From Mahella sp. (GTDB lineage Bacteria > Bacillota > Clostridia > Mahellales > Mahellaceae), in assembly GCF_020054945.1 (NCBI RefSeq), contig NZ_JAIHAU010000001.1, positions 1 to 64,000 on the forward strand: DNA of 64,000 bases, in the 5' to 3' direction. Positions 26,078 to 62,374 of the stretch are shown piece by piece. The notes under the pieces were generated by a model. It was given only the letters and a program-made list of their open reading frames with translations. It was not told the origin of the DNA and did no database searches. The position numbers were made by a program, and so were the translations under genes. Each line of letters begins with the position of its first letter. The first letter of the stretch is position 1.

Positions 26078-26189
26078 CTCTCTTATCTGCCAGGCATATC
26101 ACACCTGCAGGAATTGGCACCATACAACTTATTTCGATGTTGGTTGCCGGGCTTCATCGGGCCAGTCCCTCCACCTCTCTGGATAAGAG
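26078..26189 (-). ncRNA. SAM-I (S-box) riboswitch aptamer upstream of metY-metX
   Basis: Reverse strand CTCTTATCCAGAGAGGTGGAGGGACTGGCCCGATGAAGCCCGGCAACC...GGTGCCAATTCCTGC...GATAAGAG, canonical S-box core. Confidence 0.97.
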
Positions 26190-29014: not shown

Positions 29015-29059
29015 TTCGCTACTTTTTTAACAATAAAACAGCTTATCTATCCTATGCAA

Positions 29060-29077
29060 TGCGCATATGCATTAAAG
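29060..29077 (+). promoter_or_regulatory. Candidate enhancer box 2 (TGCG-CATA-TGCA-TTAAAG)
   Basis: Direct repeat of the box 1 pattern, about 93 bp upstream of the -24/-12 element. Confidence 0.5.
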
Positions 29078-29168
29078 ATAAATATAAATTTCATAACCTT
29101 TTTAATAATCATTGTTCTATTATGGCTAAAGATTCGTTAAATTTGTATCTATTTTTTAACCATCTAGT

Positions 29169-29184
29169 TGGTATATACTTTGCT
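29169..29184 (+). promoter_or_regulatory. Candidate sigma-54 (-24/-12) promoter of the hydrogenase operon
   Basis: TTGGTATATACTTTGCT: GG (29170-29171) - N10 - GC (29182-29183), between a sigma-54 activator gene and hydE. Confidence 0.75.
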
Positions 29185-29226
29185 CTTAATATAAGTAGAA
29201 TGATTTTTATCGAAGGAGATAGTTTT

Positions 29227-29679
29227 ATGGTAGAAGAAATAATAAATAGCCATGGCATCGCTGAAGATAAGCTCGTGCCGATACTGCTGGATATTCAAAA
29301 CAGCAACGATAAGCATTATTTGAGCGAAGATGACCTAAAACAAGTGTCGAGATTGCTCGGTATACCGGAAAGCCGCGTATACAGCGTAGCCACATTTTAC
29401 AGCTTTTTTTCTTTACAACCCAGGGGCAAATATATAATACAGATATGCGATAATGCCCCATGTATAGTCAACGGCGCATACAATGTGATCGATGATTTTC
29501 GCCATATATTGGGCATAGATATGGGGCAAACCACTCCGGACGGTCTGTTTACACTTGAATACAGCAGCTGTCTGGGATGTTGCTCACATGCCCCCGCAGC
29601 CAGAATAAGCGGGGAATTATATGGCGATCTCGATAGCGAAAAAATAAAATCGATACTGAGCGATCTTAGGAGGCGATAG
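29227..29679 (+). CDS. NADH-dependent [FeFe]-hydrogenase 24-kDa subunit (NuoE/HndA-like, 2Fe-2S)
   Basis: SRVYSVATFYSFFSLQPRGKYIIQICDNAPCIVNGA...SSCLGCCSHAPA; ATG at 29227 with SD GAAGGAGAT (ORF track start 29059 lies upstream of the promoter). Confidence 0.93.
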   Translation: MVEEIINSHGIAEDKLVPILLDIQNSNDKHYLSEDDLKQVSRLLGIPESRVYSVATFYSFFSLQPRGKYIIQICDNAPCIVNGAYNVIDDFRHILGIDMGQTTPDGLFTLEYSSCLGCCSHAPAARISGELYGDLDSEKIKSILSDLRRR

Positions 29680-38594: not shown

Positions 38595-38712
38595 GCAACT
38601 CCTTTCTCGATTATAGAATATCACATTTTGCAACAAAAAGCAATATGATGGTTGAAATTTTATTGATTTTTTCCATACTAACCTATAATTATATCAAATC
38701 TACCGCTTTTAT

Positions 38713-39873
38713 TTACACAGAGCAAGCTATCTGATATATACCAGTCTCGCAAAAACCCAACATCTCGGCCTTGGTAAGTTTACCGCCGACTACCTTCAGT
38801 ATTTCGTCGTATATTTTCAAGCCCATGCTTTCTATAGTATCTTGCCCTGTTAATATAGTACCTGCATTTATATCTATATTATCCAGCATTTTTGAATAGG
38901 TATCCGGGTTACCGGTTATCTTTATGACAGGTGCTATGGGATTGCCTAAAGGCGTGCCTAATCCAGTCGTAAAAGCAATTATCTGGCATCCTCCGGCCAC
39001 CATGCCTGTGACTGCTTCTACATCATAACCTGGCGTATCCATTATATTCAAGCCTTTTACAGAAGGCGTATCAGCATACCCTATAACGTCTACTATAGGT
39101 GATAGGCCACCTTTATGTATGCATCCCAATGACTTCTCTTCTATGGTGGTTAAACCGCCTTCCATATTGCCCGGAGAGGGATTGCCGCCACGCAGATCAA
39201 CACCCAATCGTTTTACCTCTTGCTCGACATTGGAAACTATTTTAAGTATTTTGGCCGCTACCTCTTCATTTATCGCTCTTTTGGCCAATAAATGCTCGGC
39301 ACCTATAAATTCCGTCGTTTCTGAAAGAATTGACGTGCCTCCGTCTTTAACTATCATATCGCTGGCATAGCCTAGCGCTGGATTAGCAGCAATACCTGAT
39401 GTGGGATCAGAGCCACCGCATTTAGGTCCGAGAATCAATTGCGAGCTGTCGCATTGCGTCCTCTGCTCCAGCGAGGCCTGCTCCACCATTTGGTAAGCAT
39501 ATTCCACGCCTTTAGCTATCGCCTTGACAGTGCCACCCTCCCTTTGTATAATCACCGTCTTTACAGGCTTATGTCCTCTATCTTCTATTTCCTGAGCTAA
39601 TATATGAGGTTGAGCTGTCTCGCAGCCAAGACCTATCAATACAACCCCGTATACATTCGGGTTTATGCCCAGGCCCACCAGCGTCTTTATGGTTTGTTCA
39701 GCGTCATTCCCGATCTGCCCACATCCGCGAACATTGGTAAATGTGGTTGTGCCTTTGACTTGATAGGAGATCATTCGGGCTGTTTCCGAAGAGCATGAAA
39801 CGGTAGGCAGTATTAGCACATGGTTCCGCACTCCCACCCTGCCGTCACTCCTTTTATATCCCATAAACATCAT
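38713..39873 (-). CDS. UxaA-family hydrolyase, large (C-terminal) subunit
   Basis: GYKRSDGRVGVRNHVLILPTVSCSSE; LGPKCGGSDPTSGIAANPALG; TTGLGTPLGNPIAPVIKITGNP. Confidence 0.93.
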   Translation of the reverse strand: MMFMGYKRSDGRVGVRNHVLILPTVSCSSETARMISYQVKGTTTFTNVRGCGQIGNDAEQTIKTLVGLGINPNVYGVVLIGLGCETAQPHILAQEIEDRGHKPVKTVIIQREGGTVKAIAKGVEYAYQMVEQASLEQRTQCDSSQLILGPKCGGSDPTSGIAANPALGYASDMIVKDGGTSILSETTEFIGAEHLLAKRAINEEVAAKILKIVSNVEQEVKRLGVDLRGGNPSPGNMEGGLTTIEEKSLGCIHKGGLSPIVDVIGYADTPSVKGLNIMDTPGYDVEAVTGMVAGGCQIIAFTTGLGTPLGNPIAPVIKITGNPDTYSKMLDNIDINAGTILTGQDTIESMGLKIYDEILKVVGGKLTKAEMLGFCETGIYQIACSV

Positions 39874-40157
39874 GATCCGGTATACCCCCTTAAACTCCTG
39901 ACATTATGAATATGCACATGTGCCCCAACCGGAACGTTTTGCGTGGTTTCGCCTATAGTTTCTCCGTATTTAATTACCCTCTGTCTTACCGGTATACTCA
40001 CTATGGCAAATTTATGGTATTTGGGTATACTCTCTATAACTTTATAATGCAATATGTCTTCTCCGCATCTTATATCCACAAGCTCATCAGCTTCTAAATT
40101 ATCCAATGCAACAGCCACATTGTCGTCTTTATTTATAATCAACGCCTTATAGTTCAT
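39870..40157 (-). CDS. UxaA-family hydrolyase, small (SAF-domain) subunit
   Basis: MNYKALIINKDDNVAVALDNLEADELVDI...IPKYHKFAIVSIPVRQRVIKYGETIGETTQNVPVGAHVHIHNV. Confidence 0.9.
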   Translation of the reverse strand: MNYKALIINKDDNVAVALDNLEADELVDIRCGEDILHYKVIESIPKYHKFAIVSIPVRQRVIKYGETIGETTQNVPVGAHVHIHNVRSLRGYTGS

Positions 40158-40178
40158 ATATATTTCTACGCCCACCTT

Positions 40179-41072
40179 TCACAAGTATGTACGCAAGATC
40201 ATCTTAAGTTCATACAATTTACTATACGGCATCCTGCCTGCTGGTATGCGGTCGGTCATATTATCCTCACTTATCATGTTGGCAGCTAATAATGCCTCTT
40301 TTATGACAGTAGAGCCCGGTTTCCACAATCCGTATAACTTCATCAGATGTGAAAGCGTTCTATTTTGGCGCTCTATCATGCTTATATTGCTGTTTTTATA
40401 CTCTTTGTACAATCCGACCAATACATCGGGCGCAAAGTTAGATATGCCGCCGATAACCCCACTTCCTCCCAGGCTTAATGTGGGCAGAAGATAATCGTCA
40501 AAGCCGCAAAATACATATATCTCCCGCTGCACACTTTGAGCTGCATCTATAATAGTTCTTATATGACTTAAGCTGTCTATAGTATCTTTTATACCAACCA
40601 CCGCCGGTATGTGTTCTATGATATTTTTAAAAACACCTGGAGTAATACAATAACCTGTAAGGGCTGGATAATTGTAAATCATCATGGAGATATCCGAATT
40701 ATTGGCTAAAAATTCATAGTATTGGTAGTATGTGTCATCTTCATAGTTAAAATAGTAAGGGGTTATGACCACAGCATAATCGGCCCCTGCTTTAGAGGCA
40801 TATTGGGTTAACTCAAGCGATTCTCGGCCATATGTGGAGCCTGTTCCTACCAACACCTTTGCGCGATGGCTGACCTGCTTAACAGCAAAGTCAATGAATT
40901 CTTTGCGTTCATCCACTGAAAGATATGGAAACTCGCCGGTGCTACCCATAAACAATATTCCGTTTACGCCTTTGCTTAGCAAGTATTCTACAAGATGCGA
41001 TTCTGCATCATAATCAATAGATCCCTGTTTATCAAATAAGGTTACTATCGGCGTTATGACTCCCTCGAGCAT
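40179..41072 (-). CDS. DHDPS/NAL-family aldolase or dehydratase (DapA-like)
   Basis: GVITPIVTLFDKQGSIDYDA...GSTGEFPYLSVDERKE; ADYAVVITPYYF; MIYNYPALTGYCITP; VGIKDTIDS. Confidence 0.93.
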   Translation of the reverse strand: MLEGVITPIVTLFDKQGSIDYDAESHLVEYLLSKGVNGILFMGSTGEFPYLSVDERKEFIDFAVKQVSHRAKVLVGTGSTYGRESLELTQYASKAGADYAVVITPYYFNYEDDTYYQYYEFLANNSDISMMIYNYPALTGYCITPGVFKNIIEHIPAVVGIKDTIDSLSHIRTIIDAAQSVQREIYVFCGFDDYLLPTLSLGGSGVIGGISNFAPDVLVGLYKEYKNSNISMIERQNRTLSHLMKLYGLWKPGSTVIKEALLAANMISEDNMTDRIPAGRMPYSKLYELKMILRTYL

Positions 41073-41106
41073 GTCTTTATACTCCTTTTATCTTCTGATC
41101 GTCTTT

Positions 41107-41135
41107 ACTTTATTACTTTACAGTAATATTGTCAA
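41107..41135 (-). promoter_or_regulatory. Promoter with overlapping palindromic operator for the sugar-acid operon
   Basis: Reverse strand TTGACA-N17-TAAAGT; ATTACTTTACAGTAAT palindrome (41112-41127) lies in the spacer. Confidence 0.6.
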
Positions 41136-41201
41136 GAGCCAACCAGTCTGGCAACCTCCATCCTCGCTTGTGTAAACAAGTATGTCGGTAGGCATTTGTT
41201 G

Positions 41202-42109
41202 TTACGGCTGTGAGGCTGCCGACGATTCCGGAAACATCTTTTTCACCACTTCATCTACCTGTTTCATATACGGTTTCCAGTAACTTATACTATCCTTATT
41301 CATAAACCAGCCTTCCACAATATACGTATCGATAGAGGGTTCATTCGCATCAGCCATAAAATAGCCGAGACTCATTAGCTGTTGTATGTTCATATCTGTA
41401 TAGGTCATCTCTTGCACCGCCTTATATATATCCATAAGCTGTTCAACGCTGATCTGTTTTGAGGCTATCTTCCTTTTAAGATCATCTTTCATGGCCAACA
41501 AAAACCTCTGTTGCCGCTTGACGCGGTCGATATCCCCCATCGAAGAATATCGGAAACGCAAGTATTGCTGAGCCTTTTGTCCGTCCAAGACTTGTACCCC
41601 CTTGCTCAAGTCAATACCGTTCTTATGATATTCCACGTCCACATCATATTGTACCTCTCCGATGGCATCTATAATAGGCGCAATAGCCTCCATATCCATG
41701 CCGAAATAGTGGTCGATCTTTATGCCTCCCAAAAAGTTCTCTACCGTAGCTATGGAATTTGCAAAACCATCGCCCTTTATTCCTCCCCCGAACGGGAAAG
41801 CGTGATTGATTTTATCATGGCGTTCTTTATTGGCTATAGTAACATAGGTATCCCTGGGTATGGATAGCATGATTATTTTATGCGAGGCGAAACCGATCCT
41901 CATCACTATGATGGTATCCGTACGAAAAGAACCGAGTGAGGTTTCACGCTCTTCAGTCTTATCAAGGCCGAAAAATGCAAGCGTAATGGCGTCCTTGCCG
42001 AATGCCTGCCTCGGTTCTATGGCGCTTTCTTTTTGAAAAAACTACATCCGTAAAGCAAAAACGCTATGCACAATATTAATGCTGCGGTGGGCATAAAGCG
42101 TTTAAACAT
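41202..42109 (-). CDS. LCP-family (LytR-CpsA-Psr) protein, reading frame interrupted by an apparent -1 frameshift
   Basis: Frame 0 from 42109 gives MFKRFMPTAALILCIAFLLYGCSFFKKKAP* (stop 42017-42019); the -1 frame continues QKESAIEPRQAFGKDAITLAFFGLDKTEERETSLGSFRTDTIIVMRIGFASHKIIMLSIPRDTYV...; SD GAGGGAGATC before ATG. Confidence 0.85.
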
Positions 42110-42154
42110 ATGATCTCCCTCTCATTCACTATATGGCCTCATTATACCATCTTT

Positions 42155-43303
42155 TTACCACAGCCACATCTCTTTCAGGCGTCTATTCACTTTCTCTATG
42201 TCAAAGTCTTCATAGCCTTGGTAACGTCCCCAATTTACCATACTTTCATGCTCCGGATGCTGTTCATCAGCGATTATTTCTAAGAACTCTTCATAGCCCG
42301 ATGCGCTGCCCACATCTTCAGGAGGTGCGTTACCTTCCCCTTCTATACATGTCGCATAGTTGAGAAAATAATCATCCACAACTTTTTCAACATCTATATA
42401 ATGTTCCCAATAGTCACCGAAGTCGTAAATGTACCTTAGCCTTTTGTATCGGGGAATATACTCCGAGAGCGCTACTCCCTTCTCCAATCTTGCAGGCACT
42501 ATATTTTCAAATTCATATTCATCATCATCGCACGTCAATTTGACAACTGGTGTATACCCTTCCTTATGATAATCAGGGTGTTCGCTATATAAATCATCCT
42601 GAATCTTCTCATTAGCATAAATAAGAAATTCATGTAAATGGTAGTCTTTCCATCCAAAGGCAGTCTGAATTATTTCGTGGAGAAGATCAAACGTCGTATT
42701 AAGCGGTACTATCAATTTTCTCCAAACACTTCGATTTTCAAGCTCCAATGTCACTTTAATTACTACAGCCGTGCCGTTAAAAATCGGCTTGCCAAATAGT
42801 TTTTCCAAATCCTTATACATTTCCCTGTTCGGGTGCATATATCCGCCATTTTTACCTCTTACCAAATACCTGCTTGCCTTTATACTTGCAGCCGGTTGTG
42901 GAATGGAGTTTCCGTCCAGTAAATCAGCATAATGTTGTACGACATTGCAGGCATTGTTCAATCTGCCTAATATGCTGCGATTCTTTGTTTTTGCATATCT
43001 AATTTCACCAGCATGGCTCAAGTACTGCTCTATAACATCATTTGTGATATTTTCCCGTTGAAATGTCTTATATATAGCAGTTGGTACGATATCATCGAAT
43101 TTTTTGAAGTCTTTTGCTTTCAAGCCATAAAGTACTATAGTATAGTAGTTTTTGTCATTTAAAAGAACCACAGCCCTTCTATGGTCTATAGTTATTAAAT
43201 TAGCATGCCAAGAAAAGAGAGGTTCCTCATCTGCTTGAGGCTCATGCTCAATTTCCAACCGATCCAACAGCTTTCTCGTACATTGTATTAACATTTCATC
43301 CAC
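42155..43303 (-). CDS. pRiA4b ORF-3-like domain protein with an N-terminal DUF6933-like domain
   Basis: VIKVTLELENRSVWRKLIVPLNTTFDLLHEIIQTAFGWKDYHLHEF...YIYDFGDYWEHYIDVEKV...DVGSASGYEEFLEII. Confidence 0.85.
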   Translation of the reverse strand: MDEMLIQCTRKLLDRLEIEHEPQADEEPLFSWHANLITIDHRRAVVLLNDKNYYTIVLYGLKAKDFKKFDDIVPTAIYKTFQRENITNDVIEQYLSHAGEIRYAKTKNRSILGRLNNACNVVQHYADLLDGNSIPQPAASIKASRYLVRGKNGGYMHPNREMYKDLEKLFGKPIFNGTAVVIKVTLELENRSVWRKLIVPLNTTFDLLHEIIQTAFGWKDYHLHEFLIYANEKIQDDLYSEHPDYHKEGYTPVVKLTCDDDEYEFENIVPARLEKGVALSEYIPRYKRLRYIYDFGDYWEHYIDVEKVVDDYFLNYATCIEGEGNAPPEDVGSASGYEEFLEIIADEQHPEHESMVNWGRYQGYEDFDIEKVNRRLKEMWLW

Positions 43304-43562
43304 ATCCTATAATATAATATTGCTTTTCACTGAGACTGCTTCTTGCATATAGTACAACGTTAATAATAGTATAGCATATTTCACCATTAATAGCTATCGC
43401 ATCAATATTGCGATTCAGATGAGCGATTAGATTATCATAGCACCATGATTCCCGTATGACGCTCGTTTGGTGGTTGAAGATAGAAAAATATGTAGATAAG
43501 CGGCGCGATTTATGCTAAAATTATAGTATACAAAATTTCATTAAGAGGAGGCGTTACATAAA

Positions 43563-60999: not shown

Positions 61000-62013
61000 T
61001 TATATGCTGCGGCCTACAACAGCAGCCAATGCCTTGAGATTCGCCATTAATTCTCCAAAGCGCTCGGGCAATATTGACTGAGGACCGTCGGACAAGGCGT
61101 GAGACGGGTCATTGTGCACTTCTATTATAAGACCGTCTGCTCCGGCCGCTATCACGCCCATAGACACAGAAGGTACCAATCGCCACAGCCCTGTGGCATG
61201 ACTTGGATCCACTATTACGGGCAAGTGCGTCAATTCTTTTAATAGTGGTATGGCATTGAGATCCAGCGTATTTCGCGTAGCTGTCTCATATGTGCGTATG
61301 CCGCGCTCGCATAATACCACATTCGGATTGCCATTGTAAAGTATATATTCGGCCGCCATAAGCCATTCCTCTATAGTGGCCGATATACCGCGTTTTAATA
61401 TAACCGGTTTTTTAGATGCTCCTATTTCCTGCAACAGGCGATAATTCTGCATATTTCTTGCGCCTATTTGAAGCATATCTGCATAACTGGCCACTAATTC
61501 GATATCGCGTGGATCGACTACTTCTGTCACCACTCTCAGACCGGTTTCCTGACCGGCTTGAGCCAATAATTTTAATCCGTCTTCACCAAGCCCCTGAAAT
61601 GCGTATGGCGATGTCCGAGGCTTATATGCCCCACCGCGCAGCATATCGGCACCCGCTTTTTGCACAGCCAAGGCTATATCCATTATCTGCTGCTCACTTT
61701 CTACAGCGCAAGGACCAGCAATAGAGACAAGTTTGTCACCCCCTATCTTTACCCCGTTCACATCCACTACAGTATTGTCAGCTTTTAGTTCTCTGCTCAC
61801 CAATTTATATGGCTTCATAATAGGCACTACAGTTTCTACCCCGGGCATATTCAAGAATACCTGTGGGTCGAAACCGGTTTTATCGCCTATGGCTCCTATT
61901 ACGGTCTTAAATTCGCCGTATATAGGATGAGCCTGAAAACCAAAGGTTTTTATCTGCTCTTCCACGTACTTTATCTGTTCTTTGCCGGCATTAGGTTGCA
62001 TTACTATTATCAT
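61000..62013 (-). CDS. aroF: 3-deoxy-7-phosphoheptulonate synthase (DAHP synthase, ferredoxin-like N-domain type)
   Basis: [52 protein letters not shown]. Confidence 0.97.
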
Positions 62014-62034
62014 CTTTATCTGCTCCTTTTCTAT

Positions 62035-62330
62035 ATAATAAAAAAACGCCCATCATCCCTATATAGGGACGAAGAGCGTTTTGCTTTCCGCGGTACCACC
62101 CATCTTAGTTTTATATATGAATATATAAAACCCTCTTTATCGCAGGCACTAACATGCCCTCTTACCTTTAACGGCGGAAGCTACCGGCACAGCCTATTGG
62201 TATCCACATGCGGACACGTTCAGCCTGCAGCTCCGAGGAGAACTTCGATATAACCACCTTCCTCGGGTTCTCACCTTATCCCGATTCTCTGTAAAAGCAA
62301 GGCAATACCTACTTTTCCTCATCTCAGCTT
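62035..62330 (-). ncRNA. T-box leader upstream of aroF
   Basis: Reverse strand has GGTGGTACCGCGGAAAGC T-box core followed by terminator AACGCTCTTCGTCCCTATATAGGGATGATGGGCGTTTTTTT; structured Stem I-III region upstream. Confidence 0.93.
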
Positions 62331-62374
62331 TTATAAACTTGTTTATATAATATATTACAATATGATCTATGCTG

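Follow-up and report, generated by a model that had tools for sequence, protein, structure and literature searches.

A frameshifted LCP-family gene in Mahella sp., probably a redundant gene in the course of being lost

The window considered here, a stretch of 64,000 nt from contig NZ_JAIHAU010000001.1 of Mahella sp., carries on its minus strand a gene of the LCP family (LytR-CpsA-Psr; TagT/U/V, MsrR, Cps2A; PF03816) that is split between two reading frames. The window belongs to a metagenome-type assembly that totals 2.16 Mb, with 75 contigs and a completeness of 86%. An earlier note, made from the letters of this DNA, had described a lipoprotein-like N-terminus in frame 0 that stops at 42017 and an LCP body in the -1 frame, and both parts of this anatomy were confirmed at the following positions.

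42115..42120, minus strand: ribosome-binding site AGGGAG, 5 nt 5' of the ATG, by direct reading
42017..42109, minus strand: frame-0 open reading frame (ORF) with ATG start, hydrophobic anchor with a lipobox-like LYGC, and premature TAG
41202..42041, minus strand: LCP body in the -1 frame, 279 stop-free codons
42020..42041, minus strand: frameshift box, the sole stretch open in both frames, delimited by TAG 42044-42042 of the body frame and TAG 42019-42017 of frame 0
42035..42041, minus strand: T6C tract, T TTT TTC phased with frame 0
42030..42034, minus strand: A5 tract (C AAAAA G), second candidate site of a one-base change

Translation from the ATG at 42109 gives a product of 30 residues, MFKRFMPTAALILCIAFLLYGCSFFKKKAP, and this anchor peptide alone has no match in Pfam or NCBIfam. 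The body frame starts right 3' of its TAG, begins FFQKESAIEPR... and stays open down to 41202, matching PF03816 (LytR_cpsA_psr) with E 3.6e-37 and 128.3 bits (curated cut-off 24.6) over profile positions 1-149 of 150. Alignments with eight relatives and with TagU showed that the conserved LCP residues RTD, PRD, DKIN, RxR and GDIDRxxRQ are retained, and TagU (6uf6) is the best solved relative of the body (E 2.4e-20). While the conserved motifs and the nearly complete domain are those of the LCP family, the anchor of the window gene is a short lipobox-like peptide, in contrast to the longer transmembrane-type N-terminus of its relatives. Moreover, LCP proteins have the N-terminal anchor in frame with the extracytoplasmic domain, whereas here the anchor ends at 42017 and the domain lies in the -1 frame; the locus is therefore a broken LCP gene and not a working LCP protein, and in one respect it looks like a pseudogene, since its family is still plain to see although a mutation has disrupted the frame. 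A restart at GTG 41906 was ruled out, as it would deprive the domain of its conserved RTD stretch. In a tree of LCP proteins the window protein has no firm sister.

As a result of the two TAG stops, the frames, which differ by -1, must join within the 22 nt of 42041-42020. The heptamer T TTT TTC at 42041-42035 indeed reads in phase with frame 0, as had been claimed, but it is not the only plausible crossover, since the A5 tract lies in the same box and is just as compatible with the change of frame. The slippery motif itself is commonplace, as the window coding sequence (59.4 kb) contains 64 homopolymers of at least six bases and 95 in-phase X_XXY_YYZ heptamers, including ten T_TTT_TTN, all sitting in unbroken genes, and six A_AAA_AAG. 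A T7 tract in the frame that unites the two parts would, on losing one T, leave a phased T TTT TTC, so that the coincidence of frameshift and heptamer is expected under a plain deletion and provides no independent evidence of recoding.

The same locus was compared in two genomes of the genus, G001 and that of M. australiensis (G002), the latter being syntenic with the window at a DNA identity of 76-93%. The features on which this comparison turns are given below.

42155..43303, minus strand: gene with DUF6933 and PRiA4_ORF3 domains, upstream neighbour and synteny anchor; the M. australiensis copy has 81% DNA identity
42148..42156, minus strand: AAAAAGATG, one arm of a direct repeat, where the DUF6933 gene ends; presumed 5' breakpoint for the M. 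australiensis deletion
41235..41243, minus strand: direct-repeat arm AAAAAGATG near the LCP 3' end, inferred 3' breakpoint of the same deletion
41644..41708, minus strand: stretch surviving as the G001 relic (L034 8377-8441, 88% identical)

In M. australiensis the LCP gene is deleted, and a 3' scar of ~46 nt stands right after the stop codon of the DUF6933/PRiA4 gene, followed by the next gene. The scar aligns to the exact LCP 3' end, AAGATGTTT..GG.ATCGTCGGCA....TAACAACAAA, with a score of 37, the highest score among 2000 shuffles being 28. A short repeat, AAAA(A)GATG, is found at both inferred breakpoints, and as AAAAAGATG occurs at both places in the window, a deletion between short direct repeats would explain the scar. 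The lesion in G001 is a different one: a large deletion has left an in-frame LCP relic of ~63 nt, reading YYFGMDMEAIAPIIDAIGGVEYDAG, which continues with a jump to the apparent LCP 3' end, and the sequence that precedes the DUF6933 gene in the window is joined directly to this relic at a contig end. The 21 aligned codons of relic and window differ at seven synonymous and two non-synonymous positions, which suggests, within the limits of so small a sample, that selection probably still constrained the gene during most of the period following the split, before it was lost. No close orthologue was found in a protein scan of public genome contigs, and a DNA pattern scan of these contigs matched only the contig of the G001 relic, JASGMM010000064.1 (12,637 bp). 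The comparison with orthologues that the earlier note had proposed thus yielded a relic and a scar: no uninterrupted orthologue turned up, and the shift site was not conserved either.

Two further stop-free LCP genes are present in the window genome, on contigs C31 and C61, and both relatives likewise have two each, those matching C61 being clear orthologues. The copy being lost is a third, spare LCP gene.

The reading favoured here, at a probability of about 0.72, is that an indel has recently inactivated a redundant gene of the LCP family, which comprises cell-wall glycopolymer transferases, in a lineage that is losing this gene. The T6 or A5 tract, situated between membrane anchor and extracytoplasmic catalytic domain, would have changed by one base and so put the domain out of frame, leaving normal translation to give only the 30-residue peptide; the change would be real in the living cell and the LCP product absent. 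The gene would be ancestral at this locus in the genus and would have disappeared from each of the two sampled relatives through a deletion of its own, with the two LCP paralogues kept. While the anatomy described in the earlier note stood, none of the three causes it listed, namely programmed frameshifting, phase variation and sequencing error, is the best supported, and a plain inactivating indel, which it did not name, fits best. The locus resembles the frameshifted pseudogenes and singleton frame transitions of GeneTack (PMC3711429) in being confined to one lineage, in having no conserved shift motif, in the domain family match of the downstream frame and in the decay in related genomes; it differs from them in nothing essential, the neighbouring species showing this locus at more advanced stages of loss. 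Several points speak against an inactivating indel. The 279 remaining codons are stop-free and keep all conserved LCP residues, so the event would have to be recent or the gene still be partly expressed; the interpretation relies on a single reading of a single assembly without raw reads; and an intact orthologue showing the original tract was not found in the relatives or in public genome contigs. A literature search on LCP with frameshift and pseudogene, judged at the level of title and abstract, offered no comparable case.

If ribosomes shifted by -1 at U UUU UUC, in a programmed or physiologically useful way, and so made a full-length LCP protein, this would account for the in-phase heptamer falling exactly within the 22-nt box and for a body that is stop-free and conserved. 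Like the dnaX-type system, the LCP locus has an in-phase homopolymeric heptamer within the frame overlap, but it has neither the correctly spaced Shine-Dalgarno stimulator described for dnaX (PMC3711429) nor a downstream hairpin nor conservation, and its unshifted frame gives a peptide of 30 residues. By eye, only a GGA lies upstream, 5 nt before the heptamer, in place of a dnaX-like Shine-Dalgarno sequence at ~10 nt. The 85 nt 3' of the site hold no stimulatory RNA structure more stable than shuffles (z -0.41, pseudoknots being outside the folding model), and the 216-nt region across the site does not fold significantly better than shuffles either (z -1.03). With the orthologues gone, the site has no conservation, and each of the LCP relatives matched is encoded by a single ORF, with no homologue among them in split frame. 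In the GeneTack classification, single-lineage frameshifts without a conserved site are ascribed to indel mutation or sequencing error (PMC3711429). By literature criteria, the split LCP gene fails as a candidate for programmed frameshifting, the proposal of which in the earlier note found no support, and such a mechanism is very improbable here. Slipping at U UUU UUC at low level may still give traces of full-length protein, and compensatory frameshifting of this slipping type is described in a review (PMC5009743); that a useful low level of LCP enzyme arises in this way without a stimulator, as a tolerated compensatory frameshift, is very unlikely.

An assembly or sequencing error, by which the cell would carry an unbroken gene and a base of T6 or A5 would have been miscounted, is suggested by the homopolymer position, by an assembly of 75 contigs and 86% completeness and by the fully open rest of the frame. 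The quality of the assembly was checked on the 64-kb window by comparing all non-overlapping ORFs of at least 90 residues in the syntenic 70.5 kb of M. australiensis with the window, ~56 kb being aligned; none of the 54 ORFs that matched, out of 62 compared, showed an internal frame change, despite the 64 homopolymers, so an error-prone assembly appears unlikely. The raw non-triplet gaps that were checked against M. australiensis coincided with stop codons, lay beyond true genes or within spurious ORFs, or formed pairs that compensated each other. The reverse comparison gave two candidate frameshifts, of which 29059-29679 falls in a doubtful 5' extension, while 61927-62253, overlying a T-box leader of the other strand, is unlikely to be a gene. 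Furthermore, the single affected gene is precisely the one that both relatives have lost, and an error at this one site, though conceivable, is unlikely. Phase variation, in which tract length would switch LCP expression within the population, would find a favourable place here, since the homopolymer lies near the start of a gene for a surface protein and slipped-strand switching would be effective there; T6 and A5 are short, however, no longer than dozens of tracts in stable genes, and both relatives have lost the gene altogether, which makes such switching very improbable. Two adjacent short homopolymers could also invite transcriptional slippage, by which a fraction of the mRNA would regain the frame, but runs of six and five bases lie at or under the slippage range, and this is the least credible of the explanations. 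As regards a loss of selective constraint, the signs are mixed: both relatives have lost the gene, but the window copy carries no second lesion.

Some observations concern the surroundings of the locus and the rest of the window. The upstream neighbour at 42155-43303 has its DUF6933 and PRiA4_ORF3 domains fused in one protein, a gene that M. australiensis has as well. Between the LCP gene and a sugar-epimerase-like gene, 38677-41190 holds DHDPS-like, SAF-like and altronate dehydratase-like genes; in M. australiensis this block lies ~430 kb away and the DUF6933 and epimerase-like genes adjoin, a relocation within the genus. A stretch of ~96 nt upstream of the DUF6933 gene (43328-43423), for which a single occurrence was found in the window genome, recurs three times in G001 and three times in M. 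australiensis with 75-84% identity over 41-96 nt, in some cases upstream of an Rpn-like nuclease fragment or an AAA-ATPase-like gene, and is possibly a dispersed promoter or small repeat. A T-box leader (62062-62334) and an S-adenosylmethionine (SAM) riboswitch (26080-26189), both on the minus strand, score above the Rfam gathering thresholds.

Homopolymers are mutational hot spots as well as slippery sites, and one base lost from a run of seven leaves a phased heptamer, so a frameshift exactly at a slippery site is weak evidence of recoding; the synteny of close relatives was more decisive here than the motif. If compensatory slipping did occur, it would slow the loss of a redundant wall enzyme. 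The series of three genomes, one with the frameshifted gene, one with a relic and one with a scar, shows the loss of a spare LCP gene within one genus.
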